Shown: piece by piece, positions 20,872 through 57,881 of the stretch
Position numbering within the stretch: the stretch's first letter is position 1
How the letters are laid out: each line of letters starts with the position of its first letter
Assembly: GCA_039801905.1 (NCBI GenBank)
Contig: JBDRVQ010000007.1
Location: 1-60,310 of the forward strand
From: a candidate division WOR-3 bacterium
GTDB taxonomy: Bacteria; Hydrothermota; Tepidihabitantia; Tepidihabitantales; JBDRVQ01
DNA: 60,310 bases
Reading direction: 5' to 3'
Program-made: the position numbers and the translations under genes
The notes under the pieces: model-generated
The model's input: the letters and a program-made list of their open reading frames with translations, nothing else
The model's database searches: none
What the model was told of the DNA's origin: nothing

Positions 20872-23442
20872 CTATTTGTAGATTACCTTCTCCCTAACAA
20901 TTGATTCCTTTTCTCCACTCCTAACGATTAATAGATAGACACCAGAAGATAATCCTTCTTCCTTTCCATCCCAGATAACTTTCTCCCCCGATTCTAAATT
21001 GAACTCTTTAACCTTTCTTCCTAATGGGTTATAAACAATAACTTCTCCTTTCTCCCTTCCCCACCAAGAGATAGAGAAATAATTACCAACTGTTGGAAAG
21101 ACCTTAAAAATTTCCCTTCTTTGACCAAAGGCTCCTTCTTCTATCCCCGGAATTTCATCCCTTATCACCAACAATTTGCTTTTCTCGTATACCTTCACAT
21201 AAAGCCGGTTTAACTCTGGATACCACACCTTAGTATCCAACTCTATATTCTCGCTATATCCTTGGGGATATTCCCAAATTATTTTGTTTGTCCGACAGTC
21301 TAAAGCCTTTATTCCAAACAACCCGTAATATAGTTTGTTATTTATCGGATTCCAAAAGAGGCCAACAATTATACTGCTTTCAATCCTTCCTATCACCCGA
21401 TTACTCTCTAAATCAAAAATCTTTATCGTGTCTTCTGACTCATAAGTGGCGAGGTAAATTCGGTTGTCAATTGTATCCAAGGCAAGGAAAAGACCATGGG
21501 CGCCTCGGATGTAACGGATTATGCTATCCTGAAAGCCGTCAATGATGAAGAGACCGCGGAATAGACGAGCGGTATCAACCCTCATCGGTTCTATTCTCCT
21601 TGCTTGGAATAAATCGCAAGTCGGCAAACCATCCGAGATATAAATTCTTTCATTCCTTGGGTCATACCCAATATCACCCTGGATATTCTCAAACACCTTT
21701 ATCACTTGATGAGTAACCCCATCAATAACCCGAGTCCTCCCTCGTTCGCCACCACTAACCCCCATATATACCTTATTTGTCGCAGGACTATAACTAATGC
21801 TAAAGGTTCGGTAACCGGTAAAAATCTGGTCAATCACCATATCGGTTGAACAATCTATCACATAAGTATAAGGGTCACCAGTAGGAGCAGGGGGTGGGTA
21901 GGCAAAAATTTTATTTAAGCCATCCAAATAGAGAAGTCTCCGAAAAGTGGGGATACCGGTGATTACTGTTAAGAGGCTATCGGTATTCCCATCCAGCACA
22001 ATTATCGGTCCCCCACCACAAGAGAGATAAACTTTATTCATTCGGGTAGAAACTCCTCCGTAACCAATCCCCCGGGGTCCAACATAATCCCGAAAGTTGG
22101 CGTATCCCAAAGAGCGATTTCTCTGCACATCAAATACCGAAACTATGGGAAAGGATGGATCAGTAGCATAAAGTTTTCTTGTTAGGGGGTTAAGTATCAA
22201 ATCATAGGGACCACCTTGACTCACCCCCAAATAAATCTCTTTTATATGTTCTTGGGATTGGCAATCAATAATTCCTAAAAGTTGGTTCACAAAATATACC
22301 TTATCCCGGAGAGGATGGTAGAAACAGGGGCGTCCTACATAAGAATCAGCATTACTGGGAATCCTTATGTAACCAATAATCTGGTTTGTTGCCCCATCAA
22401 TAATCACCACCGAAGAATCATAATTGACAAAACAATACAGGACATTATGACGGGAGATATACTTTATTGATGTTAAACCCATCTGAAAAGGGATTATATC
22501 AACTTGAAGGGTGGTGAGGTCAACAACCTTCACTCGGTCATCGCGCTCCAGCCCACCACACATCAGATATAGTTTATTATTGGTCTGGTTATATTCTACA
22601 AGCGCCCCGGCTGGGCACAAATATGGCCCAAGACTAACCTCACCAATTATCTGATTCCTCTCACAGTCAAAAATCAATAGGAAGAACTCGTGGGGATTAG
22701 GGAAAGAATCACCGGCTGGGATGTAAATTCTATCACACCTCTCGTTCATAATAATATCCGGGAGGAGGAAGCGAGTTGGAGATATGGAATCTTCAATCCT
22801 TCCCGTGGCACCATCCAGAATATAAATTTTATTACGTGAGCTAGCAGTTAAGAAATAGTAAATCTTATTATTGATGGGATTCCATAAGAAAGGGGACCGC
22901 TCTAATTTCCACCACCCGCTCCAAATTTTGGTCTTGTATAAAACTTCATGGGTCGCCCCATCAATCACAAAAAAGGTAGTATCTAGTTCCGTCCGACCGA
23001 TAGAGAGATAGACCTTATTTTCCCTTGGATTAAGGTCGAATGCCGCATAACCCCATGCCTCAAATGGTAATGGTATCTCCCTCACCAATCGCCGAGTAGC
23101 GCAGTCAATGATAGCAATAATATTTTTGGGGTGTTGATAAGCCGCATAGAGGCAATTATTGAGCGGATTATAAAAAATCCCCTCGCAGCAGGAGTAACGC
23201 CCCCGAACGACTTCAATTGGTGGTAACTTCTCATCACGCCCACAATCCAGAACCAATATCCGGTCACTAATGGTCCCATGGATGTAAAGTCTATCCCGAA
23301 TGGAATCCCAAACCATCTGAGTGGCGAAATAGAAACCGCTAAAACTATCAGGAATGAATAACTCGGCCTCCCGGTATTGGGAGAATAAAGAAAAGGGGAG
23401 GGCAAAGAAGAGAAAATAAAAGAGAAGACCGCTTCTCTTCAT
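20872..23442 (-). CDS. Secreted YncE-like beta-propeller protein with C-terminal sorting domain
   Basis: 856 aa with a signal peptide (SGLLFYFLFFALPFSLFS). Most of the protein is repeating 40-50-residue blades of the YncE/YVTN type, each with a V-I-D-G-A-T or I-x-D-C turn followed by NK-[IV/L]-Y, for example IIDCATRRLVREI, IDGATHEVLYK and ILDGATGRIEDS. Two propellers could be formed. Residues about 775-856 are a type-A sorting domain (FKVFPTVGNYFSI ... YNPLGRKVKEF ... GLSSGVYLLIVRS). Likely a surface binding protein. It lies 15 nt downstream of the phase-variable gene, so its transcription should be shared. Confidence 0.85.
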   Translation of the reverse strand: MKRSGLLFYFLFFALPFSLFSQYREAELFIPDSFSGFYFATQMVWDSIRDRLYIHGTISDRILVLDCGRDEKLPPIEVVRGRYSCCEGIFYNPLNNCLYAAYQHPKNIIAIIDCATRRLVREIPLPFEAWGYAAFDLNPRENKVYLSIGRTELDTTFFVIDGATHEVLYKTKIWSGWWKLERSPFLWNPINNKIYYFLTASSRNKIYILDGATGRIEDSISPTRFLLPDIIMNERCDRIYIPAGDSFPNPHEFFLLIFDCERNQIIGEVSLGPYLCPAGALVEYNQTNNKLYLMCGGLERDDRVKVVDLTTLQVDIIPFQMGLTSIKYISRHNVLYCFVNYDSSVVIIDGATNQIIGYIRIPSNADSYVGRPCFYHPLRDKVYFVNQLLGIIDCQSQEHIKEIYLGVSQGGPYDLILNPLTRKLYATDPSFPIVSVFDVQRNRSLGYANFRDYVGPRGIGYGGVSTRMNKVYLSCGGGPIIVLDGNTDSLLTVITGIPTFRRLLYLDGLNKIFAYPPPAPTGDPYTYVIDCSTDMVIDQIFTGYRTFSISYSPATNKVYMGVSGGERGRTRVIDGVTHQVIKVFENIQGDIGYDPRNERIYISDGLPTCDLFQARRIEPMRVDTARLFRGLFIIDGFQDSIIRYIRGAHGLFLALDTIDNRIYLATYESEDTIKIFDLESNRVIGRIESSIIVGLFWNPINNKLYYGLFGIKALDCRTNKIIWEYPQGYSENIELDTKVWYPELNRLYVKVYEKSKLLVIRDEIPGIEEGAFGQRREIFKVFPTVGNYFSISWWGREKGEVIVYNPLGRKVKEFNLESGEKVIWDGKEEGLSSGVYLLIVRSGEKESIVREKVIYK

Positions 23443-23457
23443 CCCTACCCCCTTCCT

Positions 23458-24781
23458 TTAACGATAAATTGCTATTTTACCGGTCCGAGAGAAACCAGTT
23501 GATTTCAGTTTATAGAAATAGAGACCAGAAGGAAAGTTCCGATAATCCCATTTCCCCTCACCAATCACCGAAGTTCGGTATATAACCTCTCCCAGGCTGT
23601 TATAAATCTCTAATTGAGAATTGGGGTGGAAGAATTTCACCCACCTCGCCTTTTGGTCGCAAAGGACTAAAAATGATTTTTCCTCCCTTTTGTCAAAGGA
23701 CGACTGGCCACCGCCAAAACCTTCTCCCTCCGGATAGAAGAAACCAAAGGTATCGGTATTATCGCCAAAAAATGCCCACATCCCTTCCATTAAATATCCG
23801 TAATACCTTAATGAACCATAGGCGAGACCAGAACCTAAATAAACCTTTTTTAATGGGTCGCTCGGGCGTGGACTCCAGGTGGTATCTCGTGTGAGATAGT
23901 CGTCAAAATCCTTAGTAGCATCTCCGCGAAGATAGTAAAGGGTCTCTACCTCGGTATTAGAAGGAAACCTTTCCGCACCAACCACACCTCGTGCTGCCAG
24001 TTGTAGACCAAAACCGGTACGATATCCCCACCGAGGTCTATTGACCCATTTATTATCTGAGATAATATATTCCTTCAAATTCGCTCCGTTCACTGTTGCG
24101 CTGACAATAACATACATTGATTTCCGGCCTGGGTCGTATGCCATTTGGGAAGGAGACTGAGATGGACTCCCACTTGGTTTTAACCTTTCCCACCAAGTGA
24201 TTGGAGTTTGAATGAGTGGGATATAAGGGTAATGATATCGCCAGAATTGGTCGTCAGGATTATCCCGAAGATAGACCGAAACACAAGGATAGTCATTCCA
24301 AAATGTGTAGCCACCTGCTTCCAGAGAAACATAGTTGCTTGGATTAATTGGGATATCTTCTAAACGTTTCCAAAACTCACCATCTATATTGTAGACCCAA
24401 AACTCCCTATTGTTCTCTCCCTTTATCACAAAGATGAGATTTTGCCAGGAGGCAGGAATTGAGTGGAAAGCAAGGCTCACTCCGGTATTTATCGGACTTC
24501 CCGGAAGAGAAGGCAATTCAATCCACCTTGGGAACGGTTGGTTATAAATAATATTGCAGTCCAAGTAATAAAATCGGTTCCTATTGGTCTGCTCGTCGTA
24601 GAATAGGGCATAAATCCTTCTGTAAGGATGGATGGCTGTTGACTCAGTGGCAATCATCGCACTTCGGAAGGTTTGGCGATGTGGGGTTGGTTCAAAATAG
24701 TACCACTCTCCATAGCCTAAGAGGCTGACTGGGATTAAAAAGAAAAAGATTGTATGTATGTATGTATGTATATTTACTCAT
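23458..24781 (-). CDS. Secreted propeller protein, phase-variable (OFF: start codon out of frame)
   Basis: A good promoter, an AGAGGAGG site and an ATG (24781-24779) precede this gene, but that ATG reads into a stop at 24692. The gene's own frame is open from 24777 and encodes a signal peptide (IFFFLIPVSLLG, ending near 24718), then a roughly 400-residue propeller-like domain and a type-A sorting tail (IYNSLGEVIYRTS ... NFPSGLYFYKL). It contains no ATG, GTG or TTG before 24657, which lies inside the mature protein. Between the ATG and the signal peptide are five TACA copies; removing one copy, or adding two, joins ATG and signal peptide in frame. Hence I read it as an intact, slipped-strand-regulated gene, here OFF. 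An assembly error in the repeat is the alternative. Confidence 0.75.
24751..24770 (-). repeat. Tetranucleotide tract (TACA)5 at the start of a secreted-protein gene
   Basis: Five perfect copies of TGTA on the plus strand (TACA on the coding strand), 9 nt after the start of the ATG codon and directly before the signal peptide. Length changes of 4 nt shift the frame. Confidence 0.95.
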
Positions 24782-24810
24782 AGTATCCTCCTCTTTCCAT
24801 AAGATAAAAT

Positions 24811-24838
24811 ATTATACAGGGAAAATTTTATTTGTCAA
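24811..24838 (-). promoter_or_regulatory. Promoter of the phase-variable gene
   Basis: Minus strand TTGACA (24838-24833), 16 bp, TATAAT (24816-24811). Predicted start near 24804 gives a leader of about 23 nt with AGAGGAGG (around 24793-24786) placed 5 nt before the ATG. Confidence 0.88.
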
Positions 24839-24879
24839 GTATCCGGTTTTCATCAAAAATAATCTTAAAGATCGAGCAC

Positions 24880-24912: not shown

Positions 24913-25974
24913 ATGCGGCAGGTATTGGAACTTCCCCTCCATTACGGTAGCGCCCCTCCCTGGTTATTTGAGCGGATGAAAAGATTAGCCTCCGCCATCT
25001 TAGAGGTTATGGTAAGGGAATTCGGTCCTGAGGAAGTGATTAGGCGCCTTGCCGACCCTTTCTGGTTTCAAAGTCTTGGCTGCCTTTTAGGTTTTGATTG
25101 GCACTCTTCTGGTTTAACAACCACAGTCTGCGCCGCCTTAAAAGAGGCGGTCAAGGGCAAAGAGAAGGATTTCGGAATTATCATTGCTGGTGGTAAAGGG
25201 AAGACTTCCCGCAAGACCCCTGAGGAATTGAGAGGGTATGGAGAAAGGTTTGGCATGAAAGCGGATGAATTAATCTTTGCTTCCAAAATCTCCGCCAAAG
25301 TAGATTCTGCTGCTTTGCAAGATGGTTATAACTTATACCACCACACATTCATCTCTACCCTAAAAAATCAATGGGCGGTAATCCAACAGGGGATGAACGA
25401 AGAGACAAGAAAGGCGAGGAGATACCATTGGCTAAAAGAAGACCTAAAAGACTTTGTTTGCGAACCCCATAAGGCAATAATCTCCGAGGCGAAGGGTTCT
25501 GCTTTGAATATGGTTGCCCAAGAGAGTGAAAACGCAAGAAAGGTTTCAACCTTAATCGCTTGCGACAATCCAGAAAGAACAATTAAGGAATTGAGTAAAA
25601 TTCTCCAATTACCAGACAGGCATTTCTTAACTAAAGAAGATATTTCACCAAATAGAATAAAGAAGATTTTATTAAAGACCTATAACAATCCCCCGAAGGA
25701 TTTTCTCCAATTATTAAAGACCGAAGGGGTTGGTCCAAAAACGATTCGCGCCTTAGCCTTAATCTCCGATGTCATTTATGGCGCCAAACCAAGTTATACC
25801 GACCCCTTTGTCTATTCCTTTGCCCACGGGGGCAAGGATGGTTATCCCTATCGGATAAAAAAAGAAGATTATGATAAGTCAATCAAAATCTGGGAAAGTG
25901 CCATAAAATTAGCCAAATTAGGCAGAGAAGAAAAACTCTTAGCCCTTCGCCGTTTAAGCCGGATGTTTCGTTAA
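24913..25974 (+). CDS. DUF763 family protein
   Basis: 353 aa, recognised as DUF763 by its N-terminus (LPLHYGSAPPWLFERM) and by FDWHSSGLTTTVCAALKEA, AGGKGKTSRKTPEEL and YNLYHHTFI. The C-terminal part (about 235-300) has a helix-hairpin-helix-like GVGPKTIRALALI, as in DNA glycosylases and other nucleic-acid proteins, followed by SYTDPFVYSFAHGGKDG. The family occurs in Archaea and thermophilic bacteria; the HhH suggests DNA or RNA binding, but no activity is established. A single-gene unit with its own promoter, inserted between two large secreted-protein genes on the other strand. Confidence 0.85.
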   Translation: MRQVLELPLHYGSAPPWLFERMKRLASAILEVMVREFGPEEVIRRLADPFWFQSLGCLLGFDWHSSGLTTTVCAALKEAVKGKEKDFGIIIAGGKGKTSRKTPEELRGYGERFGMKADELIFASKISAKVDSAALQDGYNLYHHTFISTLKNQWAVIQQGMNEETRKARRYHWLKEDLKDFVCEPHKAIISEAKGSALNMVAQESENARKVSTLIACDNPERTIKELSKILQLPDRHFLTKEDISPNRIKKILLKTYNNPPKDFLQLLKTEGVGPKTIRALALISDVIYGAKPSYTDPFVYSFAHGGKDGYPYRIKKEDYDKSIKIWESAIKLAKLGREEKLLALRRLSRMFR

Positions 25975-26020: not shown

Positions 26021-29000
26021 TCACATCTTTATCACCTTTTTGGTGATTTTCTCTTTTCCGCTCTCCCACTGGAATAGATAAATTCCGGAAGGCAAAATTC
26101 TTCCTTCTTTTGTTCGCCAGTTCCAAACGAGATTTCCGTCTTTCGGTACCGAAATGGTAGTAATTAACCGACCATCTGTGGTAAAGAGTTTAACCTTATT
26201 TACCTCTTTACCGGTGGATGATAACTTAATTCGGATAAACTTACCCGCCGGATTGGGCGAAATCTCTAAGGCGAAAGGTTTCTTCACAATCTTCACCTCT
26301 TCTTCCATAATCCCCTTCGTCAGAAGTTCGAGTTGTAAATCAATATAGGCACCATAAGACCAGAATTCGGTTCTATTGCCACCCTTAAAGAGATAGACAA
26401 TAGAATCAGAAGCGGTAAGGGCAGCTCCGGGTTTAACCTTCCTATTGTAAGGACCTTTCGGTATAGAATCTCTTGTGAGCCAGGTATCACGGATAATCTC
26501 ATAAGAGAGAAATTCTAAGGAGTTGCCACCAAGGGCTAAATAGAGTTTATCAGAGAAGGCGGTAAGGCAGGCACCGGACCGAACCCGTTTGAAAGCGGGA
26601 TAACCAACAACCTCTAAGGTCCGCCAGATATTATCCGCTACCACATAGCCATAAAACTCCTGGGTATTTCTTCCCTTCACTCCATAAATAATACCATCCT
26701 TTGCCGCCAGAGCCGAGCCGTAGCCAAGTCTTTTGAGATAACCACCAGCTGGAAAATCAGGCTTTGCCTCCCAATTGTCGGTTAAGGGATTATAAGACCA
26801 GAACTCAAGGGTATTCTCACCTTTTATCGCAAAGAGATGTTGTGATGTCTGGTCGTAAACTAAACTGGCACCTTTCCCTGGTCCTTTACCACTTGCCCCT
26901 TTCGGAATTGTGCAACACTCAACCCAACTCGTCTCGGTCGGGATACTATCGGTGAGGTCAAAGTAGTAGAAGTCCTGCCTTCTTCCTCCCTTAAAGGCAT
27001 AAATCCTTCGCAAATTGGCATCGTAGGCTAAGGCGCAACCAAATTTTGTCTTGGTCCGACGCTTTAAGTATTTTGAGGAATCGGGCAGGGAAGGCATCAT
27101 CAGCCAACTATCTTTTCTCGGGTCATATTTCCAGAACTCATTTGTATTATGCCCTTTTAAGGCATAGACATTACCTTCCGCATAAACCAGAGCCCCGGAC
27201 TTCACCCTTCTCCCGGTATAGCCTCTTGGAATATCCGCTTCCTGTCGCCATTTCCGCAAAGTGAAGACTAAAGAGGCGGTATCATTCCGGAAGTTATAGT
27301 CCTCAGTGGAATAGGTAGAGCATCTCAAAAGATAATTCCCGGAGATTAAATTAAAGGAAGGAAAACTAATGGTTAAGGTCTCCCCGGGGAGAAGTTGGGT
27401 AGAAAGTGATTCCGCATAGTAGCGTTGTGTTGTATCCAGAGAGAAGATTTGAACTTTTGTCCAGAAGGTATCCGGAAGGGTTCCGAAATTTCCAACCCGC
27501 ACCTTGGGCACTAAATTCCCAGGATAATCTTCTTTCCGCGGGGAAATAATTTTGGCAATTCCCGCATCCTGGAAGAGCCGATAGAACCTAACCGCCCGAC
27601 CATTAGTTAATAGATTCCCCGGATATTTATGTCTCCCTTCACCGTAGAGATATTCTAAGGCAACGCCACCGGTCGTATCTTCAATCCCCACTGTGGCGCT
27701 CCTCCCTTGGTCATACCTTTTCTCACCGGTTAGGACATCAAGATACTGGAAGGTGATGGTCCCGTTCTCATCTAAGATAACTTCAAAGGAGATACCCGCT
27801 TCTGGGTCAGAATAATTTGTTCCTTTTCTCTTCACCCGGTCCCAGATAATTACCACTTTACGCAGTGGCGCTTCACCTATTACCTTATAACCAATCCGAC
27901 CACCACCAAAATCCCGGCCGATGATTAAATCATCCCAATAGGGATAGATGGCACCGTTCGGGGAAGAAGGACTGGGAATACCGGAATTATTCGGGGCTAA
28001 AACCGCACCGGGTAAGAAAGAAAGCCAGCCATCAACTGAGACCCGGAGATAAGTATAGGAAGTGTCATAAAATCTAAAGGGGAAAGGTAAACCACCGGGT
28101 AAGTCAACACTTGCCCCATCACCTTCGCTGATTAAGGTGAACATATCGGTTGTGTCAATCCAAGAAAAGACCGGTCCCTCGGTCGTATCGGAATCAATCC
28201 AGAAATGGCGATAAATCCCATGGTCGGGACCACCGGTAAAGTAGGCGGGATAAATATAAATTTCTTTCGTTGTGGTATCATTTTCCAAAACCATATCCGC
28301 CGGGAGAATTGTCCTCACTCGGATAAAATACCTTCCCGGTGCCGGAGGGATAAATGGACTAAACTCCACCATCTCCCCACTAAAAGTGGGAAGGCTTTCC
28401 GAAACTAAAGACTTATTCTCAGACATAATCACATTTCCTAAGACATCATAGACCGTACAGGCAACAACCACTGGGTCGGGTAAGAGGGCAGGATATAAAG
28501 TCAGATTCCCATAATTCTCAATCCGGGCGGAGATGGGAAACTCCTTTCCTAAGGGTCTCAAAACCAATTCTCCTCTTGGCTTAAAGACAAAGACCGCCTT
28601 AAGGTCGGAATCTGCCAGAACCGGTTCCTGGAAATCAACCGTTGCCCTGATCATCCAATCACCCGGTGTGGTATCTTTATTATAGAGAGAATCCGAGAAT
28701 AAGAAATAGTAGCGATTCCGGGCAATCGGATTCCGGGCGATATCCCGATAGAGTTGGGGACCAGAAGGATAATCTCGTGCCAAGAGATAAAAGAGATAAA
28801 AGCCACCTTCCTTAATCGTTAAGTTTTTATCTCGCAAATCAATCACATTCCAACCCGGGGAAACCCCAAACTCTTCGGATTCGTAAAGGATTGTCCCCGG
28901 AGAAGAATCAATCCCGTCATCGGCTAAGATGCGAACCTTAAACCGATTGGGTAAAGTGTCATCTGCCCGGAAATAGAAATGGGCATAGGAAATTTTATAG

Positions 29001-30877
29001 GGGAAGTATTCCGGGATAAAACGAACCCCAATTCCCTCATCGGCAAAATAGAAGAAAGTGTCCCGCACCGGAACCGAATCGTCATAGAGATAGGTCGCAA
29101 GATAATTGACTGTAAAGTTACGGGCAATGGAATCGTTCGTTGGATTCTCATCAACCGTATCTACCAGAGCGGTCCAGAATCTCACCCCGTATTCGCCACC
29201 AGTGGTAGCAAATCCCGGAAAAGTAAGTCTCAAAGTCTCAAGTGGCGGCAAAGGGTCAACTGGTAGAATACTTTCTAAGTAGACCTCAGTTCCTAAGGTA
29301 TCGCCTTCATAAATGCCGCAATAGACCTTAACCATTTGGGAATCTAAACCGAAATTCTTCACTAAGACCTCCGGATAAACCATATCCGGTAATTCTAAGG
29401 GTTTTGGTCTTATAATCTCACTAATCCCAACATCATTGGGGAATACCTCATCACCATAAATCATCACATTATCCAGACACCACCAGTAGATTCCCCGGAC
29501 ATCACCTTCAAAGACCCAAGCAAACTTCACATCTTCCTTATAATCTGCCCAATCCAAACGAAATACCTCTACCCCGGGACCGAAAGGTTCTTTATATTCC
29601 CGAATTAGATAGGTATCCGGACCAGCAAAACCGATAATCTTTGCCTTGTATCTCGTTGTATCATCGGGTCGGAAATAAGTGGAACACCTTAAAAAGAGGT
29701 TAGACATATCAGAAAAATCAAAGGTTGGTGAGATTAGAGAATCCGGGGCATCATCCGAGGTGTAATAGACAATCGCCGCATAGGGCGTAGAATTTGCGGT
29801 CCAGGGAGAAGAAGCCCCATCCCTTCTGTGCCAATCCGAAGTTGAGGTATCGCCGGTCCAAGTGATCCGCCAGCCTGGTGGCGGAGAAACGGTTGACCAG
29901 GGGATATTGAAATCCTCCCGATACCGACGGTAAACACCAAACTTCTTTCTTTTTCGGTTATTACTCTCGTTTTGGTCAAGACTATAAAGGGTGGAACAAA
30001 TCCCTCTAAACCAACCCCGCAAAGATAATTCAAGCGGGGCAAACTCTTGAAGGAGCGAATCACCGGCATTAAGACTTATATCCTGAGTATCTAAGTAGAT
30101 AATAGAATCATAAGAGATACTCCTCACCCGGAAGAGGACGCGGAAATTGGCATCTTCGGTGCCATAATTTTTAATCCAAGCCTGAGGGGTAACAATAGTT
30201 CCGGAATCAAGAATTCCGGTCGGTGCCACGATTGACTTCACCCCGACATCATGAAGGGTATAATAAATTCTTAATACCGGTGGTCTTGTGCTCTCTCGGG
30301 GACGAAAACGGATATAATCGCCAATTAAAACCTCGCCCACCTCCAGTCGGTTTGGGTTATTTTCCGGTAAGGAAGGGGGAACGACAAAAGTCGGGTCATC
30401 CGGGTCCTTTAACTTAAAAGAAACAAATTGATTTCCCACGCTGTGGTCAACCAAGACGATATCCTTCACATCAACCGATTTTGTCCAGTCATTTGCCACC
30501 ATCCCGAAACCTGAGGTCTGGTCAATCTGATTAGAAGTTGGGATATTCCAGATGTGATGAGCAGAATCGTCTTCGGTCCAGGTCTGGGAATTGACATTCC
30601 AGAAGGTAATATCCCCATCCCAAGTCCCAAGAACATTAGTAACATAAACCAAAAGGAAGGCGGAATCAATCAGGCAATTTTCCGGTAGGGGGGAGATATC
30701 AAACTTCAAAAAGGCATTTGCCCCTTCCCCACCACCATAGGAGATAATGTGGACATCATCGGTTGGGTTCAATTCTAAAAGGTAAGAAGTATTGCCTTTT
30801 ATCGGTAAAAAGAGAAAGGCGAAAGATAAAAAGAAAAGAGAAAACTTTTTCCAACTAAAAGAAAAAAGGTTAGCCAT
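26021..30877 (-). CDS. Giant secreted protein: DNRLRE-like, CARDB-like, adhesin and propeller modules with C-terminal sorting domain
   Basis: 1618 aa with a signal peptide (LFLPIKG near residue 27). Residues about 30-205 resemble a DNRLRE/CBM-like beta-sandwich (FLKFDISPLP, W-T-E-D-D). A CARDB-type DVGVKSIVAPTG block follows, then a cleaved-adhesin/MAM-like domain (about 310-470), further CARDB-like blocks (DVGISEIIRPKP, IAKIISPRKE), a nidogen-like segment (GLPFPFRFYDTSY), and about 300 residues of propeller blades carrying K-G-x-N-T-x-E-F-W-x-Y. The end (LEISPNPAGKFIRI ... LPSGIYLFQWESG) is a type-A sorting domain. Probably a surface adhesin or scaffold. AAGGAGG precedes the ATG. Confidence 0.88.
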   Translation of the reverse strand: MANLFSFSWKKFSLFFLSFAFLFLPIKGNTSYLLELNPTDDVHIISYGGGEGANAFLKFDISPLPENCLIDSAFLLVYVTNVLGTWDGDITFWNVNSQTWTEDDSAHHIWNIPTSNQIDQTSGFGMVANDWTKSVDVKDIVLVDHSVGNQFVSFKLKDPDDPTFVVPPSLPENNPNRLEVGEVLIGDYIRFRPRESTRPPVLRIYYTLHDVGVKSIVAPTGILDSGTIVTPQAWIKNYGTEDANFRVLFRVRSISYDSIIYLDTQDISLNAGDSLLQEFAPLELSLRGWFRGICSTLYSLDQNESNNRKRKKFGVYRRYREDFNIPWSTVSPPPGWRITWTGDTSTSDWHRRDGASSPWTANSTPYAAIVYYTSDDAPDSLISPTFDFSDMSNLFLRCSTYFRPDDTTRYKAKIIGFAGPDTYLIREYKEPFGPGVEVFRLDWADYKEDVKFAWVFEGDVRGIYWWCLDNVMIYGDEVFPNDVGISEIIRPKPLELPDMVYPEVLVKNFGLDSQMVKVYCGIYEGDTLGTEVYLESILPVDPLPPLETLRLTFPGFATTGGEYGVRFWTALVDTVDENPTNDSIARNFTVNYLATYLYDDSVPVRDTFFYFADEGIGVRFIPEYFPYKISYAHFYFRADDTLPNRFKVRILADDGIDSSPGTILYESEEFGVSPGWNVIDLRDKNLTIKEGGFYLFYLLARDYPSGPQLYRDIARNPIARNRYYFLFSDSLYNKDTTPGDWMIRATVDFQEPVLADSDLKAVFVFKPRGELVLRPLGKEFPISARIENYGNLTLYPALLPDPVVVACTVYDVLGNVIMSENKSLVSESLPTFSGEMVEFSPFIPPAPGRYFIRVRTILPADMVLENDTTTKEIYIYPAYFTGGPDHGIYRHFWIDSDTTEGPVFSWIDTTDMFTLISEGDGASVDLPGGLPFPFRFYDTSYTYLRVSVDGWLSFLPGAVLAPNNSGIPSPSSPNGAIYPYWDDLIIGRDFGGGRIGYKVIGEAPLRKVVIIWDRVKRKGTNYSDPEAGISFEVILDENGTITFQYLDVLTGEKRYDQGRSATVGIEDTTGGVALEYLYGEGRHKYPGNLLTNGRAVRFYRLFQDAGIAKIISPRKEDYPGNLVPKVRVGNFGTLPDTFWTKVQIFSLDTTQRYYAESLSTQLLPGETLTISFPSFNLISGNYLLRCSTYSTEDYNFRNDTASLVFTLRKWRQEADIPRGYTGRRVKSGALVYAEGNVYALKGHNTNEFWKYDPRKDSWLMMPSLPDSSKYLKRRTKTKFGCALAYDANLRRIYAFKGGRRQDFYYFDLTDSIPTETSWVECCTIPKGASGKGPGKGASLVYDQTSQHLFAIKGENTLEFWSYNPLTDNWEAKPDFPAGGYLKRLGYGSALAAKDGIIYGVKGRNTQEFYGYVVADNIWRTLEVVGYPAFKRVRSGACLTAFSDKLYLALGGNSLEFLSYEIIRDTWLTRDSIPKGPYNRKVKPGAALTASDSIVYLFKGGNRTEFWSYGAYIDLQLELLTKGIMEEEVKIVKKPFALEISPNPAGKFIRIKLSSTGKEVNKVKLFTTDGRLITTISVPKDGNLVWNWRTKEGRILPSGIYLFQWESGKEKITKKVIKM

Positions 30878-30973: not shown

Positions 30974-33900
30974 TTATTTCACCACAATCAATTTTCGCTC
31001 TTCCCTTCTCTTATTATCTTTATCGCGGAGTCGGAGCAAATAGACACCCGCCGGCAATTTTTCCACTCGGAACTCCCCCCTCTCCGTCTCTTCTTTATAA
31101 AGAAGTGCGCCGAAGGTATTATAAACTTCCAAAATGACCTTCTCCCCTCTTGGGAGATGGTAATAAACCTTAATCGAACCTTTTGTCGGATTCGGGAAAA
31201 TCCGAATTATCTCCTTTTGATTTAGAGAGATCGCTTCCGAACTTCCTTCTCTGGAATACCATTCCTCTTTCCCACCAATATACTTCCAGATGGAACTGGT
31301 ATTATTTCCCTTCAATGCCCAGATCTCTTCTCCTGAGGCGACTAGCGCCCCACCACCTTTAACCCTCTTTCTCTCATCCGCCCTCGGAATTGTCTCCAAA
31401 CCAACCCAAGAATCTTGGGTTAAATCATACATCCAGAACTCACCGGTATTGCCACCCTTGAAGGCAAAGATTTTATCACCCTTTGCCGTAAGTGCTGCCC
31501 CTTCCTTCACTTTCTTCTTCTTATTCACCTGCGGGTGATATAGAGGCATTGGTTTCAGAGTATCCCAGGAATTAGCACTTGGCGAATAGCGATAGAAGTT
31601 ATTATAGTTATTTCCTAAGAGATAAATCTTTCCCTGATGTGCCAAGAGACAGGAACCGTCCTTAAAGCCTTTACTTCTTGGTGGCGAAGACAATTGCTCC
31701 CAATTTCTATTGGCGAGATTGAACCGATAGAACTCTGTGGTATTGGAACCCTTTAAGAGATAAATAAAATCCGAGAGATGGCAAACACCGGTTCCGCCTT
31801 TCAGACCCTTCTCCCCCAAAACCGGTGGCAACTCCTGCCAGATTGTCTCCCTTTGGCAATCGTAGCGGAAGAATTCCTTTGTGCCAGAACCCTTAAAGAT
31901 ATAAAGGAAACGCTCCCCATCCGAAGTGATACCACTTCCCTTCTTCACCTTCTTATTAGAATTACCAAGGGGTAGAGAATCTTCATAAATTGCCGAAGCC
32001 GAACCCGGAAGATAAGAGTAAAGACTTCTCGTATTATTCCCCTTTAAGATATATAATTTCCCGGCGCATTCGGTCATTCCCCCACCCGATTTTATCCTCT
32101 TTCCATCCGGATTAAGTGGCACCTGGCCCACCAAAACCCAACCCTGGGTTGGCACTCTCACCCGGAAGGAGACTATCTGTTTATCATTCAAATGATTCTG
32201 GTCAGTGGCAAGAGCGGTTGAGCATTGCCCGGTATATTCTCCAACTTGGGCATTCCATTCGTCAAATAAAACATCCCTTGCCTCATTGGGATAAATATCT
32301 GAGACATAGGAGGAATCATAATAGACCAACTCCTTCCCGGAATAAATCTTAAAATAGGTAAAGAAACTCTCCGGATAATGACCATAATTATAGACCTTTG
32401 CCTTTGGTCTTATTGGACCTGGAGAAATCTCGCCCCTCGGTCGGCTAATCTCCAAGACCCCAACATCATAAACCTGCGCCTCAACCAGAAAGATTCTCCC
32501 CTTAGCATCATTTTCCGGATTATTATCCCCAAAAAGGGCGGTGGAACATTTCGCCTGATAGAGAATTGGTCCGGTCGCATACCATTCGGAAAACTCCACC
32601 TCTAAGGTAGAATCCGGGAGAAGGGAGACCAATTGGGAATCAGAATAGACAAGATTACCAAGATGGATATTAATCGTGAAATAAACCCAAAACTCTTCTT
32701 GCGTCTCGCCGTAATTCTTGACCAAAGCCTTCGGTCGCAAAGGTCCTTGGGACTCGTAGACATAAGGTCTAATGATTGATTCCACACCAACATCTTTCAC
32801 TAAACGGAGCACTTCTACGGAATCGGTCTTCTTATCATTTCCCCTTATCATATCCCGAGCCAGTTCCGTAGAACAAGAGACCGAATGAGCCCCAACTTCC
32901 CTTGCCTCCCAATTCGGAAAGAAAATCTCTTGGTAAGTTCCAGGTAAATGACCAGAGACCGAAGCGCTTTCGTTATAGAAATTACCAATCTTCAACCGAA
33001 TTGAGTAATTTTCACTCCGGTTCCCATAATTATAAACCGAACATCGGGGCGTCACCACAACTCCGGAATCAATCTCTCCGGTTGGGGCAATAATCTTACT
33101 CACCCCAACATCCGAGACATAGACCATTAGAGAACCGGTGAGCCGGTTATTGGTTGGATTCAGATCGTAGGTGAATTCTGTTGAGCAACTAACTGGGTGA
33201 TTTCCCCTGGGCAAATTACTGATTGAAGGAAAGGTAAGATATAATTTTTCTTGTGGATTATGGCTATTGACAATTCCCACCTGATTATAGAAATCACCAA
33301 TTTTTAATCGGACCAAATAGGGACCTTCGGAAGTTGTGCCAAAATTATAAACGGTGCAGGCCGGAGTAAGAGAAGTTCCGGAGTCAATCTCTGGTGGGAG
33401 AACAAGAGAAAGAACACCAACATCCCGCACCCGAACCGAAAAAGAACCGGTCTTCTTATCATTTGTCCAATTCATATCCGTAGATAGTTCCGTAGAGCAG
33501 GAGACCGGATAACTTCCCCTTTGCCAATTGGCATTGGTTTGGGGAAAGGTGACATAAACCAACTGATTCGGACTATGGGAAGAGACATTAGCGGTTTGGT
33601 TATAGAAATTACCAATCTTCATCCGGACATTATAACTCACCGTATTTGTCCCATAATTAAAGACCGAGCAGGCAGGAGTGAAAACAGTTCCCGAATCAAT
33701 AGTTCCTGCGGGTGCCACAATCTTTGTCACCCCAACATCATAAGGCAGAGAATAGTCAACAATCAGTTGAGGAGAATAAGGGGAATAAGTGTGATGGGCA
33801 AAACCAATCTCCCAAGTCAAAACCCCACTCGTCGGACCAGTGCCGCTATAACCAATCGCAAACCAATTGTCGCTTAAATGGTTCTGAAGGTCGGTCCGTG

Positions 33901-34474
33901 CCTGGGTACTAAGAGTTGCGGTATTCCAACCAGAAACCGTTGGCGTATACCCCCCATACAAAGGTCCGCTTCCGGCATCATTGTAAAGGGTGAGGGCATC
34001 CGCGGAACCAGAAGGGCGATTGGTCATCTGGTAAAGGTTAACATTTGGATAACTTCCTGTAATTTCCGTCCGGTAGGTGCGGCAGATAACATTATTAATT
34101 ATCGCCCCATCAGGAATGGAACTGATATCCCACTCTACCCAACCCCGCTCTAATTCATAAGCGTCGGGATAATATTCTCCCCAATAGCCGCAGAAAAAGG
34201 CATTACGTACCGGTGTCGTCCATTTTATTGCTTGGTAAAGACTTCCCCAAAGGTAAGCTAGTTCCGAGAAACCACTAAAATTTGGTAAAAGGGTATCAGC
34301 TTCAGAGAGAAAACTTGGCTCGGCTTCAATCACTGCCCTGATTGTCCCATCGCCATTAGCATAATGCCGGGCATTGGCAGTTCTTATAATCTCCGTCCCT
34401 TTTGGTAAGTAGCCAGGATTAATTCCAGCAAAAACGAGACCAAAGAAAAAACTTAAAACTATTAACCTCTTCAT
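30974..34474 (-). CDS. Large secreted CARDB-repeat/propeller protein with C-terminal sorting domain
   Basis: 1166 aa with a signal peptide (LIVLSFFFGLVFAG). Residues about 30-245 form a DNRLRE/CBM-like domain (GWVEWDISSIPDGAIINNV). At least five CARDB-like repeats of about 85 residues follow, each opening with D-V-G-V-x-x-I-x-x-P-x-G-x-I-D-S-G and containing V-x-N-Y-G. Residues about 790-1085 are propeller blades with L-K-G-N-N-T or L-K-G-S-N-T turns. The last 80 residues are a type-A sorting domain (IRIFPNPTKGSIKVYYHLP ... LPAGVYLLRLRD). Paralogue of the proteins at 40210 and 58443. GGAGG lies 5 nt before the ATG. Confidence 0.88.
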   Translation of the reverse strand: MKRLIVLSFFFGLVFAGINPGYLPKGTEIIRTANARHYANGDGTIRAVIEAEPSFLSEADTLLPNFSGFSELAYLWGSLYQAIKWTTPVRNAFFCGYWGEYYPDAYELERGWVEWDISSIPDGAIINNVICRTYRTEITGSYPNVNLYQMTNRPSGSADALTLYNDAGSGPLYGGYTPTVSGWNTATLSTQARTDLQNHLSDNWFAIGYSGTGPTSGVLTWEIGFAHHTYSPYSPQLIVDYSLPYDVGVTKIVAPAGTIDSGTVFTPACSVFNYGTNTVSYNVRMKIGNFYNQTANVSSHSPNQLVYVTFPQTNANWQRGSYPVSCSTELSTDMNWTNDKKTGSFSVRVRDVGVLSLVLPPEIDSGTSLTPACTVYNFGTTSEGPYLVRLKIGDFYNQVGIVNSHNPQEKLYLTFPSISNLPRGNHPVSCSTEFTYDLNPTNNRLTGSLMVYVSDVGVSKIIAPTGEIDSGVVVTPRCSVYNYGNRSENYSIRLKIGNFYNESASVSGHLPGTYQEIFFPNWEAREVGAHSVSCSTELARDMIRGNDKKTDSVEVLRLVKDVGVESIIRPYVYESQGPLRPKALVKNYGETQEEFWVYFTINIHLGNLVYSDSQLVSLLPDSTLEVEFSEWYATGPILYQAKCSTALFGDNNPENDAKGRIFLVEAQVYDVGVLEISRPRGEISPGPIRPKAKVYNYGHYPESFFTYFKIYSGKELVYYDSSYVSDIYPNEARDVLFDEWNAQVGEYTGQCSTALATDQNHLNDKQIVSFRVRVPTQGWVLVGQVPLNPDGKRIKSGGGMTECAGKLYILKGNNTRSLYSYLPGSASAIYEDSLPLGNSNKKVKKGSGITSDGERFLYIFKGSGTKEFFRYDCQRETIWQELPPVLGEKGLKGGTGVCHLSDFIYLLKGSNTTEFYRFNLANRNWEQLSSPPRSKGFKDGSCLLAHQGKIYLLGNNYNNFYRYSPSANSWDTLKPMPLYHPQVNKKKKVKEGAALTAKGDKIFAFKGGNTGEFWMYDLTQDSWVGLETIPRADERKRVKGGGALVASGEEIWALKGNNTSSIWKYIGGKEEWYSREGSSEAISLNQKEIIRIFPNPTKGSIKVYYHLPRGEKVILEVYNTFGALLYKEETERGEFRVEKLPAGVYLLRLRDKDNKRREERKLIVVK

Positions 34475-40209: not shown

Positions 40210-43200
40210 CTACTTCACCACGATTAACTTCCTATCTTCCTTGTAGCCCTTGGACTCAAACCGTAAGAGATAGATTCCCACCGGTAGTCTCTTGATTGTA
40301 AACTCACCCTTATCGCTTCTCGCAAGATAAACCAGACTTCCTAAGGTATTATAGATTTTGAGAGTGGCAACTTCTTTCTTCGGCAGGTTGTAATAAACCT
40401 TGGCCAAACCCTTGGTCGGATTGGGCACAATCCGAATACCAAGTTCCTTACCAGTCAGATATTCCATCGTCGCGGTATTCGGTAAGGTAGCAGCCAATGG
40501 CAGATATTCACCGGTATACTTCCAGATGGAAGTTGTATTATTTCCTTTCAGAGCATAGATTGTACCATCGGTCCAGAGGCAAAGTCCACCACCACCCTTC
40601 ACATACTTCTTATCCGGCATCTTCGGTATCGTATCCAAACCAACCCAACCTCCAGGCGGTGTCAAGCCCCAGAACTCCTTCGTATTATTCCCCTTGAAGG
40701 CATAAATCTTTCCTTCCTTCACAACCATTGAGGCACCTTCGCCAACCTTCTTCTTCTTATTCCACATCGGATGAGTGAAAGGCATTCCAGAATCAGATGT
40801 CCAGGTCTTATTCGGGATGTCATACTTGTAGAACTCATTATACTTACCCCTTAAAGCATAGAGCGTATTCTCATCATAGGCAACTAAGCAAGAACCATCA
40901 CCATAACCCTTATCTCCCGGAGCAGATGGTAAAGTCTCAATCCAAGTGTTATTGGCGCAGTCAAAGGCATAGAACTCATTGGTCTTGGAACCCTTTAAGA
41001 GATAGACAAAACCATTAACATAAGCCATTCCCGTGCCACCTTTCAGAGCCTTGCCACCACCAGTCGGAATATCCGGTAAGGCGACCCAACCGGATTCACC
41101 CTGGGTATCATACTTCCAGAATTGTAAGGTATTGGTACCAGAAGCGAAATAGAGCCATCTTGTGCCATCATAGACCATACCGGTTCCCTTCTTGACACCC
41201 TTCTTTCCCGTAACTGGGACGGAATCAAGTGGTGTTGGGGCAGTTTCCGGAACGAAGGCATAGAAGTCTTTCGTATTATTTCCCTTGACGATATAGATCT
41301 TATCGCCACCGTAAACAATCAGACCACCGCTCTTTATCTTCTTGCCCGAAGGTGTAAGTGGCACTTCCACTGATAGTTTCTCCCAGGCACCCGGTGGCGG
41401 TGGTGGGGTACCAACGGTCACATCCCGTTTCATCGTATCATTCGCTGGGTTCATATCCAGGGAGTAGACTGTAAAGGCGGAGAGGTGATAGACGCCTTCG
41501 GTGGCAATCCATGGTGTGAGAACAACGGAGAGAACTTCTTCAGGATTGATCATGCTATACTCACGGAAGTCGTTATAGACCTCATTACCGAGGTTATCGT
41601 TAATTATCACTTGGGCGCGGATATTGTAGGCTGGGACATTGCCGAGGTTAGAAATCTTAATATTCACCGGTATCGCAGCAGCGGGTGGTTCAACCGCATT
41701 CGGCCGGACAATTTCTACAACCGTCAGGTCGCGGAACCGGATAAAGGTAGAACCAGTCTGGCCATCGTTATCCGGATTCATATCGTTCGCGAGTTCGGTC
41801 CAGGCATTCAGTTGATATTCACCGGGTTCGGTTGGTGTCCATTCCTCAAAGGTCACATTTTGGGAAGAGTTGCCCTCCATCGTCAATTCCGCGGTATCGG
41901 CATAGACAACCGCTTTGCCATTGCTAATCTGGAAGATCACATTAAAGGTCCTGTCAAAGTAGCCATAGTTCCAGACTGTTGCCTGCGGTTGAACTGATGT
42001 GCCAAAGTCAACTGTATCACCAGGAGCAAGAATCGCGCTGACACCGGCATCAATACCCGGGACAGCAAAGACCAGACGCATCATCCAATCATGACCAGTC
42101 CAGAGGTTCCAAGTTCCCGGTGGCGGAGTCATGGACCAGTAAGAACGACTATTGGGAGCGCTGGCATCAGCCGAGACATAAGGACCGGAAGAAGAGCCGG
42201 TTGGCCAGTGGACCACTAAAAAGACATCATTGGGATTACCGGAAACCGCAACATCGCCAAAGTCAACAGTTTTCCAATCGGTTGTCGGAATTACGGTCGT
42301 TGCCGTTGGCTGGTTGGGAACCGAAACAATTGGCGAAGAGAGTCTTGGGATATTAGCGGATTCGGGATAGACGCCACAGTCCGCGAAGGAAAGGGGCACA
42401 GTGGAAGCGGAGATATTGAAACGACCCCTTCTGATTAGATAATTGGCAGCCGGTGGGGTAATCTTTACCGCAAACCGGTCATCGGGACCAGAAGGATACT
42501 GAACCCAGTAGTAGGCTTCTGGCACTCCATCATCATAGCCAACTTCAATCTCTGCCCAGTTGGAGAAACTATGGCTCATCACCTTGGCATCATTCTCGGG
42601 TTTCTCATCCCCTGCCAGTAAGGTGCGCATCGTATCAAGATAGACCCCTTCGCTCGGTGTGAATTCTGGAAATTCCACTTCCCGTTCTTCCCCACTTATT
42701 AGGTCATAGATAATAACGGTCTCGTTGTAAACCTCAACCCCAGTGTTATCCCGGATGACGCACTGAACATCAACTTGGGGTTGGTCATTGACACCATAAT
42801 TCTTAACCTTAGCCTTCGGAATTACTGGTTCTGGGGGCCAGTTCGCAGGTGGACTAACAATCTCTGAGACACCAACATCATTCGCTGGGACCCAGACCTT
42901 CACATCATCCAGATAGTATCCCTCATAGTTGACTGAGGCATCGGATAAAAATCTCCACATAAACCGCATCTTATCCGAAGTGGGGAGAGTCTGGGAGAAA
43001 GCCTGCCAGGCACTAAGATAGTTCCCTTCGCATTTCATCAATCTCGTCCAAGTGGGGTTGGGATTATCAAAGTCCGCTTCGGTCGTATAGTAGATGATGA
43101 CCGAATCATAACTGGCTTCAAGATACCAGCGGTGATAGAATTCAAAGAAGCATTCCGACATAGCGGACATATCAACAATTGGTGATAAGAGGATGTCATT

Positions 43201-44388
43201 AGAATTGTTTTCATAATAAGTTGCCCCATCCGCGGTATTCCGGCAACTATAGGTTCCGGTGTGGGCGTAGTTATCGGATTGGGACCAGGTATAACCGCCA
43301 TTGATATTCTGGACGACCCAACCAGTCGGTGGGAAACTCCCTTCAAAACTCTCATCAATCCCGGTCACAACATAAGTGGCACCTTCAACCCGGGTTAAGG
43401 TATCATTTGCCCGGTTCTGGTCCGTAGAAAGGTCGGTGAAGAACTTTAAGGTATAAGTGCCAGCGGATGGTGGGGTCCAGGCAAAGAAGGTATCAAGATA
43501 AGTCCCAGAATTGAGCGAAGGAATGGTGATTGTCTGTTCCACTGTCCCATTGACCATTAACTTCACTGGGATATCGGTCTCATCATTTTCACCAGAGTTT
43601 ACCACCCTAAACCAGAACTCATCTTCATCACCGGCGACCACTGGATAATTTACAACATTGTAAGGGGTAGTGGCACTAACATCGTGGGCAACTGGAAAGC
43701 CAAGTCGGATATTGGGCCGGTTATAGGAAGTAGATAAGGACGTTGGCTGGGAATAATCAGAATAACCCCTCCTCACCCGATAATTTGGAGAAGTTGAGTG
43801 GTAATACCAGTAGGGATAAGGAGAAGTCCAGGCTTCATAACCTTTAACGATCAGGATGATGAGGTTTTGAGTATTAGAATAAGCGAAAGGAGTTGTAAAG
43901 GTGACATATTGCCAGCCGGTCTGGGTATTGGGCCAACTTCCCTGCCAGACCAAGACCCAGGGTGAAGGTGGCGGAATCGTTACAATACCAGAAGTTAAGG
44001 TTGTAGCGGTTGTCTCGCGCATATAGATTGAGACATTCTGAATCGTAATTCCACCGGTGGAATAGTTATTAAATCCCATCGCGACGATATTCCCGGCGGT
44101 ATTAATCTCGGTCTGAAGGTAGATTCCCTGCCAGGTGGAATAGTTAAAGAACCGATACATTGGCCAGCCTTCATAAGAAGTTCCGGTGCCGATCTCAATC
44201 CACATCTGGTCGGTTGGTGGCGCAATCGGTTCTTCCCCGGGCTTATTGCCAATCTCTACCCAGTTCATCTCTTCGGGTTTCGCCTTCTTCGCCGGTTCCG
44301 GATTGAGGACGGACTGCGCGGGCACGCTCGCCAGGATAAAGCCGAATGCTCCCAAAAGGAGCATTAAGAGAGCGAGTCTCTTAAACAT
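40210..44388 (-). CDS. Major secreted surface protein: adhesin, CARDB and propeller modules with C-terminal sorting domain
   Basis: 1392 aa with a signal peptide (LALLMLLLGAFGFILASVPA). Order: N-terminal beta-sandwich (about 60-230), CARDB-like repeats, a cleaved-adhesin/MAM-like domain (about 345-500; EGSFPPTGWVVQN, YYLDDVKVWVP), more CARDB-like blocks (DVGVSEIVSPP, DAGVSAILAPGD), a propeller region (about 1020-1310) with K-G-N-N-T, K-G-S-K-T and R-G-K-Y-N-E turns, and a type-A sorting tail (IRIVPNPTKGLAKVYYNLP ... LPVGIYLLRFES). Three tandem promoters and a structured leader suggest high, controlled expression, as for an S-layer-like protein; that role is inference. Confidence 0.88.
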   Translation of the reverse strand: MFKRLALLMLLLGAFGFILASVPAQSVLNPEPAKKAKPEEMNWVEIGNKPGEEPIAPPTDQMWIEIGTGTSYEGWPMYRFFNYSTWQGIYLQTEINTAGNIVAMGFNNYSTGGITIQNVSIYMRETTATTLTSGIVTIPPPSPWVLVWQGSWPNTQTGWQYVTFTTPFAYSNTQNLIILIVKGYEAWTSPYPYWYYHSTSPNYRVRRGYSDYSQPTSLSTSYNRPNIRLGFPVAHDVSATTPYNVVNYPVVAGDEDEFWFRVVNSGENDETDIPVKLMVNGTVEQTITIPSLNSGTYLDTFFAWTPPSAGTYTLKFFTDLSTDQNRANDTLTRVEGATYVVTGIDESFEGSFPPTGWVVQNINGGYTWSQSDNYAHTGTYSCRNTADGATYYENNSNDILLSPIVDMSAMSECFFEFYHRWYLEASYDSVIIYYTTEADFDNPNPTWTRLMKCEGNYLSAWQAFSQTLPTSDKMRFMWRFLSDASVNYEGYYLDDVKVWVPANDVGVSEIVSPPANWPPEPVIPKAKVKNYGVNDQPQVDVQCVIRDNTGVEVYNETVIIYDLISGEEREVEFPEFTPSEGVYLDTMRTLLAGDEKPENDAKVMSHSFSNWAEIEVGYDDGVPEAYYWVQYPSGPDDRFAVKITPPAANYLIRRGRFNISASTVPLSFADCGVYPESANIPRLSSPIVSVPNQPTATTVIPTTDWKTVDFGDVAVSGNPNDVFLVVHWPTGSSSGPYVSADASAPNSRSYWSMTPPPGTWNLWTGHDWMMRLVFAVPGIDAGVSAILAPGDTVDFGTSVQPQATVWNYGYFDRTFNVIFQISNGKAVVYADTAELTMEGNSSQNVTFEEWTPTEPGEYQLNAWTELANDMNPDNDGQTGSTFIRFRDLTVVEIVRPNAVEPPAAAIPVNIKISNLGNVPAYNIRAQVIINDNLGNEVYNDFREYSMINPEEVLSVVLTPWIATEGVYHLSAFTVYSLDMNPANDTMKRDVTVGTPPPPPGAWEKLSVEVPLTPSGKKIKSGGLIVYGGDKIYIVKGNNTKDFYAFVPETAPTPLDSVPVTGKKGVKKGTGMVYDGTRWLYFASGTNTLQFWKYDTQGESGWVALPDIPTGGGKALKGGTGMAYVNGFVYLLKGSKTNEFYAFDCANNTWIETLPSAPGDKGYGDGSCLVAYDENTLYALRGKYNEFYKYDIPNKTWTSDSGMPFTHPMWNKKKKVGEGASMVVKEGKIYAFKGNNTKEFWGLTPPGGWVGLDTIPKMPDKKYVKGGGGLCLWTDGTIYALKGNNTTSIWKYTGEYLPLAATLPNTATMEYLTGKELGIRIVPNPTKGLAKVYYNLPKKEVATLKIYNTLGSLVYLARSDKGEFTIKRLPVGIYLLRFESKGYKEDRKLIVVK

Positions 44389-56805: not shown

Positions 56806-57881
56806 ACCTCAATCTCGGAATCGTCAGAGATTAAAAGGCGGAGACATTGGTGAGTTTTCTGATTCTTTTCAATCCGCACATTCCGGCCGATAAGCGATTC
56901 CGCCATCCGATTAATCTCCTTAATTTTCGTTCCTTTCAAGATGATAGAATATTCAATCGTTGAATCTTCAATTACACAATCCTCAGCAATCGCCGTAAAA
57001 GGACCAATTTGGGAATTGATAATCTTCGTATTCTGCCCAATCACCACCGGTCCGTTAATCTCACTATTTCTCACCTCTCCCCCTTTCCCAATCTCCACTT
57101 TACCCGAGATTTGGGATTGAAAAACATCTCCTTCAATCTTCCTTTCAATCAATTGTTCAAGAATTGTTCGGTTCGCCTCCAAAAGGGAATCCTTCTTTCC
57201 GGTATCCAGCCACCATTTATCTAAGATATGGGCGTGCACCTTCCTTTTGTCTTCTAACAACCGGGCGATGGCATCGGTAATCTCCAACTCTCCCCGGGCG
57301 GATGGTTTTATCATCTCAATCGCCTGATGGATCGCCGGGGAAAAGAGGTAAACACCAACCAATGCTAAATTTGATTTCGGCATTTGCGGTTTCTCTACCA
57401 ATTCCACAATCTCCCCTTTTTGATTAAGGGTGGCGATACCAAATTGGCTGGGATTAGAAACTTCCTTCAAAAGGAGCAAGGCATCAACCCCCAACTGATT
57501 AAACCTCCTAATAAACTCCTTCAAATCCTCACCGATGAGATTATCCCCGAGATACATCAAGAAAGGTTCATCTGCCAAGAAATCCCTTGCCACCTTTACT
57601 GCATGGGCAAGCCCCTTCGGCTCTTCTTGAATTATGAAGGTAAAACTCACCCTTTGCTCACCTAAAATCTTCCTCTCGTAATCAGCAACGCTCTCCTTAA
57701 TCAAATCGCCGGTCTCCGGAGCGATGATGATACCAATATTAGAAAGTCCGCTTTTGATGATATTGTCTAAGACGAAATGGAGAATGGGCCGGTTCGCCAC
57801 CGGCACCAGTTGTTTCGGGATGGTAAAGGTCAAAGGCTTTAACCTCGTCCCCTTACCACCGCAGAGGACCAGGCATTTCAT
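56802..57881 (-). CDS. rfbA: Glucose-1-phosphate thymidylyltransferase, long form (RmlA)
   Basis: 359 aa. Nucleotidyltransferase motif LCGGKGTRLKPLT, PKQLVPVANRPI, MYLGDNLI with the metal Asp, and EKPQMPKSNLALVGVYLF. Residues about 245-359 form a left-handed beta-helix extension (IGKGGEVRNSEINGPVVIG), giving the long form. First gene of rmlA-rmlC-rmlB, all overlapping by 4 nt. A GlmU-type uridylyltransferase is a weaker alternative. Confidence 0.85.
   Translation of the reverse strand: MKCLVLCGGKGTRLKPLTFTIPKQLVPVANRPILHFVLDNIIKSGLSNIGIIIAPETGDLIKESVADYERKILGEQRVSFTFIIQEEPKGLAHAVKVARDFLADEPFLMYLGDNLIGEDLKEFIRRFNQLGVDALLLLKEVSNPSQFGIATLNQKGEIVELVEKPQMPKSNLALVGVYLFSPAIHQAIEMIKPSARGELEITDAIARLLEDKRKVHAHILDKWWLDTGKKDSLLEANRTILEQLIERKIEGDVFQSQISGKVEIGKGGEVRNSEINGPVVIGQNTKIINSQIGPFTAIAEDCVIEDSTIEYSIILKGTKIKEINRMAESLIGRNVRIEKNQKTHQCLRLLISDDSEIEV

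Follow-up and report, generated by a model that had tools for sequence, protein, structure and literature searches.

We found that a secreted-protein gene in this uncultivated bacterium has a tract of five TACA repeats between its start codon and its signal peptide, and that the assembled tract length leaves the two out of frame. In our judgement this is very probably a phase-variable (contingency) gene. Slipped-strand phase variation had been proposed in an earlier note on the basis of this single locus; two further genes and a near-copy in the same genome share the arrangement, as does a leader family in another genus, and the whole-unit length differences among these homologous leaders reinforce this proposal. 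Throughout, "the window" is the whole stretch of DNA that was analysed, 60,310 nucleotides of contig C7.

A TACA tract separates the start codon from an intact signal-peptide frame

The gene is encoded on the minus strand and has a frame of 430 codons. Its features, and those on either side, are the following.

24843 to 24867, minus strand: remnant of an insertion sequence (IS) end, 5 nt upstream of the -35 hexamer
24811 to 24838, minus strand: sigma-70 type promoter, TTGACA-N16-TATAAT, 12 of 12 consensus matches; similar hexamers and spacer stand before the paralogues
24787 to 24794, minus strand: Shine-Dalgarno AGAGGAGG, read from the sequence
24692 to 24781, minus strand: ATG reading frame as assembled (OFF product), 29 codons, TGA at 24694-24692
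24751 to 24771, minus strand: tetranucleotide tract, TACA on the coding strand, 21 nt, 5.25 copies, 100% match
23458 to 24777, minus strand: intact secreted-protein frame, +1 relative to the ATG, with a signal-peptide core, weak Kelch-like repeats and a C-terminal type IX-like sorting domain
20872 to 23442, minus strand: downstream secreted protein gene, 856 aa, starting 15 nt past the switched gene

The promoter, Shine-Dalgarno (SD) site, ATG at 24781, five TACA copies and stop at 24692 described in the earlier note were all recovered from the sequence at those coordinates. The -35 hexamer TTGACA (24838-24833) and the -10 hexamer TATAAT (24816-24811) are separated by a 16-nt spacer, the start codon occupies 24781-24779 on the minus strand, and the tract, which is single-copy genome-wide, sits within the signal-peptide DNA. 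As assembled, the ATG frame encodes MSKYTYIHTYNLFLFNPSQPLRLWRVVLF. The +1 frame opens just behind a TGA overlapping the ATG. It reads ...IFFFLIPVSLLGYGEWYYFEPTPHRQT... and is stop-free to 23460-23458. It had been said to have no usable start, and indeed no ATG, GTG or TTG occurs in it upstream of 24657, where the mechanical ORF call begins and which is already beyond the signal peptide, in the mature protein. About 400 residues follow the signal-peptide core, among them the peptide EFWVYNIDGEFWK. The frame arithmetic also holds: loss of one unit or gain of two fuses the ATG frame with the signal-peptide frame.

The switched gene and the 856-aa gene probably form one operon, since the pair is also adjacent in a relative, G006. 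The divergent neighbour (24913-25974, plus strand) encodes a DUF763 protein (E 2e-134). On the minus strand, 26021-30877, 30974-34474 and 40210-44388 encode three more secreted proteins of very large size that have Kelch repeats as well as C-terminal sorting domains, making the window rich in exported proteins. Searches of the window returned no Rfam family and no tRNA.

The IS-like end (...AAGATTATTTTTGATGAAAACCG), or its relic, is not confined to this promoter. In a loose motif search it stood exactly 5 nt upstream of a TTGAC-like -35 in 15 of 19 places; a sixteenth place with 5-nt spacing, on the minus strand of C9, looks like a chance match. The contigs of G000 that carry such ends are C2, C7, C9, C13, C14, C18, C20, C30, C32, C34, C39, C52, C55, C56 and C58, and the genes behind the pairs read like gyrA, tmRNA, yebC, mreB and others. 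This spacing suggests that the element inserts beside promoters, or else that the motif is part of an extended promoter.

Tetranucleotide tracts are rare and lie behind start codons

We scanned the whole assembly (58 contigs, 1,695,716 bases) and found just three tetranucleotide tracts of at least 15 nt in this 1.7-Mb genome, namely those on C7 (21 nt), C9 (19 nt, 57055-57073) and C20 (17 nt, 627-643). The chance expectation is about 0.33 tracts of at least 17 nt per genome (30 genomes simulated with a third-order Markov model). Each of them is found no more than about 20 nt behind an SD and ATG, inside the signal-peptide DNA of related secreted genes. Only 2.0% of the genome is 47 nt or less from such a site, and the probability that all three tracts would fall there by chance is about 8e-6. 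At C7 the unit, whose length is not a multiple of three, stands behind a functional-looking start, as in a 5' tandem repeat.

One might argue that the hydrophobic codons of a signal peptide simply happen to repeat: YLSI-like repeats are compatible with a signal peptide, and (TTTG)4 forms an in-frame lipoprotein start in G126. However, the lengths and positions of the tracts are far from random expectation, and codon choice does not account for the out-of-frame state of most copies. We regard such chance low complexity as extremely improbable.

Other repeats in the genome (A10, G9, TTTCT, CTTCG, GCTTCC, CTATCTCT and AAAG) were checked by position and gave no comparable start-codon switch; TTTCT3.6 on C2 is near a gene start, in an open frame. 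Degenerate-unit patterns were considered as further switches and set aside, most being ordinary hydrophobic starts.

Related genes in the same genome carry other repeat numbers

The paralogue on C20 is 48% identical to the C7 gene over 202 aligned codons and has the same hexamers and 16-nt spacer, as well as AAAAGAGGAGG and ATGAGTAAGTAT. Both genes begin with ATGAGTAA(A/G)TAT and then diverge in their repeat unit, TACA on C7 versus TATC on C20. The C20 tract, (TATC)4, is in frame, so that this gene is ON and reads MSKYLSIYLIFLLLPLSLFGYGVWYYFEPTPHRQT.

On C9, a TTGACA-N16-TATACT promoter, AAAGGAGGGG and ATGTGGTTTAATAAAAGGG are followed by TATC repeats. The gene is OFF: its ATG frame stops after 18 codons and its signal-peptide frame (YLSIYLYIFLLISTIALGQMGWVQKANSPHPVNEGGALT) is in +1. 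Its kinship with the C7 and C20 genes is less certain, because about 60 codons are assembled and the comparison covers the N-terminal part only. C55 has the same gene start as C9, whereas the sequence upstream of it has diverged but keeps the TATACT -10 and 16-nt spacer; this copy is likewise OFF in +1. Apart from one substitution, its repeat region is shorter than that of C9 by exactly 12 nt, or three TATC units. Therefore, near-identical gene starts within one genome differ by whole repeat units.

Contig ends interrupt three of these four genes (C9:57244, C20:1 and C55:1), and consequently the rest of each, along with any further copies, is missing from the assembly. Such fragmentation, with three of the 58 contigs ending within switched genes, could be taken to mean that the OFF lengths are assembly errors and the true tract is in frame. 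Nevertheless, a 21-nt tract fits easily within a short read, and OFF lengths arise independently, in whole-unit steps, in several genes and in other genomes. An assembly error is thus highly improbable.

A leader family in another genus differs by whole units

The nearest orthologue of the switched gene, in G006 of the same order, shares 33% identity with it and is followed by a homologue of the 856-aa gene (BLASTP E = 1e-19). An in-frame ATG elsewhere in a repeat-free relative had been named in advance as speaking against a switch. Instead, the G006 gene has its SD and in-frame ATG at the same place, and the repeat is absent; the tract is thus lineage-specific. This is most simply explained by an ancestral start behind which the repeat was inserted on the source-genome lineage, since the G006 ATG is in frame with no repeat. 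Searches of IMG/VR for relatives gave nothing useful, and one of GTDB contigs gave one match, of 35 residues.

We then scanned 147 genomes of the phylum for an SD and ATG followed by TAYM units. The same arrangement recurs in the distant genus g20, from a different family within the class, where several large secreted proteins have a leader of the form GGAGGTAAAGATGCTACGCGC-(unit)n-GGACTATTGAGTATTCTCTTTGCTCAAGG in front of them. Most of these proteins share a similar short N-terminal segment and then diverge. Between the fixed flanks we counted 2, 3, 3, 3, 4, 5 and 5 units, all lengths being exact multiples of 4 bases, which set the frames to +1, +2, +2, +2, 0, +1 and +1, respectively. All three frames are therefore represented and only four units give ON; whole-unit steps place the coding region in every frame, here between homologous leaders rather than alleles. 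The units are TATC, TACT or TGTC. One three-unit tract is TGTC and another has one substituted unit, while the four-unit tract of the sole ON gene of this leader family is TACT.

This spread of frames bears on whether the gene is always on, with its frame restored by programmed ribosomal frameshifting or transcriptional slippage. All three OFF copies in the source genome would need the same +1 shift, and T-rich sequence lies just after the tract, as recoding would have it. On the other hand, the homologous leaders need 0, +1 or +2, so that no single event fits all, and the T runs are just 5 long. We consider recoding very unlikely.

The 147 genomes contain five perfect (TATC)4 tracts, four of them just behind the SD and ATG of a secreted protein gene. 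The fifth, on G010:C12, is intergenic, and the long TATC array there (24735-24770) was rejected as a switch for its intergenic position and odd composition. This array and a second intergenic one at G010:C16:2300 (long TATC and TA arrays) are unlike the rest of the order, and both contigs are possibly contaminants.

OFF frames are otherwise intact

Two of the 13 leaders examined are ON, which is below the one-third expected without selection, albeit not significantly (binomial P about 0.14). Another OFF example is provided by G122, in a lipoprotein gene. The frames of the OFF copies are otherwise intact over 430 to 1456 codons, with two exceptions, G035:C17 and G033:C5. In g20 they are open for 961, 1127, 1354, 1456 and at least 816 codons (the last running into a contig end), with just 132 in G035:C17; G033:C5 combines a related leader with a short remaining frame. 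Two OFF paralogues in G035, 63% identical in amino-acid sequence over 786 codons, have a dN of 0.29 and a dS of 2.2 (dN/dS about 0.13), which indicates that they are under purifying selection and, given the excess of dS over dN, that both were probably translated for most of their history. Between the C7 and C20 genes, differences are likewise most frequent at third codon positions (119, vs 82 and 69 at the others), with dS saturated.

These data weigh on the possibility that the C7 gene is a pseudogene, its frame broken by repeat expansion and further decay still to come. That most copies are OFF, and that some relatives' copies have short frames, would agree with this. However, the 430-codon frame shows no other lesion, other OFF copies stay open for 961-1456 codons, and the two G035 paralogues appear constrained while OFF. 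Moreover, decay would not be expected to put independent units at one and the same position in several genes. We therefore judge a pseudogene to be unlikely, even though some individual copies may be dead, given the short frames of G035:C17 and G033:C5 and an ON gene in G060 with no obvious C-terminal sorting domain.

The product is a putative exported protein, at the surface or released

The gene had been taken to encode a surface propeller protein. We favour a type IX-exported protein, at the surface or released, because the C-terminus matches sorting domains (E 1.5e-4 and 2.8e-4, below the Pfam cut-off) and a SprA homologue is encoded on C6 (SprA_N above cut-off). Together with the signal peptide, these matches lead us to infer surface exposure. 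As to the propeller, Kelch matches are mostly below cut-off (Kelch_6 at 19.8 bits against 25.3), the orthologue passes narrowly for Kelch_1 (20.5 against 20.1), and a single-sequence fold has low confidence (pLDDT 38), so that a Kelch-type beta-propeller is weakly supported.

Discussion

Our data are best accounted for by a switch in which RNA polymerase would initiate at the TTGACA/TATAAT promoter and ribosomes at ATG 24781, the number of TACA units behind the ATG setting entry into the signal-peptide frame. With the five units assembled here, translation would yield a 29-residue peptide and then stop (OFF); four or seven units would give the full secreted protein (ON). Slipped-strand mispairing at replication may gain or lose units, so that a population would mix ON and OFF cells, and independent switching of the C7, C20, C9 and C55 genes would vary the exported surface proteins. 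This model assumes expression of the gene in the ON state, tract changes within a population and slippage frequent enough to matter; the OFF state may also lower the downstream gene by polarity. Counting against it, the tracts are short (4-5 units here, 2-3 in some relatives), and slippage in such tracts is expected to be rare.

Tetranucleotide on/off switching is known from the hgp and lic genes of Haemophilus and from autA and autB of Neisseria. In N. meningitidis, autB carries 2-10 AAGC repeats in its signal-sequence DNA, and switching has been shown across isolates; the gene is OFF in nearly all of them and otherwise intact in most (PMC5118866). As in autB and autA, the tract described here directly follows the start codon, within the signal-sequence DNA of an exported surface protein, and unit numbers are low. 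The mostly OFF yet intact state of autB is also the closest parallel to the OFF excess we observed. Unlike autB, which encodes an autotransporter of a pathogen, our genes have a type IX-like C-terminus and belong to an uncultivated phylum, and their switching is predicted.

In H. influenzae, nearly all tetranucleotide tracts adjoin the start or sit just downstream of it (hgp CCAA, lic CAAT and others), with 12-21 such loci per genome and tracts that are commonly longer, e.g., 14, 21 or 32 units; interrupted tracts are taken as signs of paralogue recombination (PMC2651432). The genes studied here resemble these loci in having tracts at or after the start, paralogous families, different units in one genome and interrupted tracts, but differ in number and length (three loci, 4-5 units each). 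A hypervariable gene of a gracilibacterium has 9-nt in-frame repeats with synonymous variation and no frame switch (PMC6851277). In common with our gene, it belongs to an uncultivated lineage and encodes a surface protein whose variation is based on repeats; the predicted on/off frame switch sets ours apart.

The mechanism is thus of a known kind. Its novelty appears to lie in the lineage, in cargo of a type IX-like kind, in a single leader serving different proteins, in repeat units that turn over, and in a putative multigene, mostly-OFF set in an uncultivated phylum with type IX secretion. No report for the lineage was known to the earlier note, and our literature search (open-licence papers; lineage term guessed as WOR-3) likewise found none of such switching. 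A broader idea, which we advance tentatively and think somewhat doubtful, is a modular switch in the phylum: the leader (SD, ATG, tetranucleotide tract and signal peptide) would be shared or copied among different type IX cargo genes, with unit turnover among TATC, TACA, TACT and TGTC, and would maintain a default-OFF surface repertoire.

Such genes are missed by automatic annotation or, as with the ORF start at 24657, called only from a point beyond the signal peptide. The best-documented cases of on/off switching by repeats come from pathogens and commensals adapted to a host. If a phylum known from metagenomes also has several such genes, most of them OFF, this would imply shifting selection on the surface, by phages, grazers, hosts or partners. 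The reads with which to test this idea are present in metagenomes, so that no cultivation is required.
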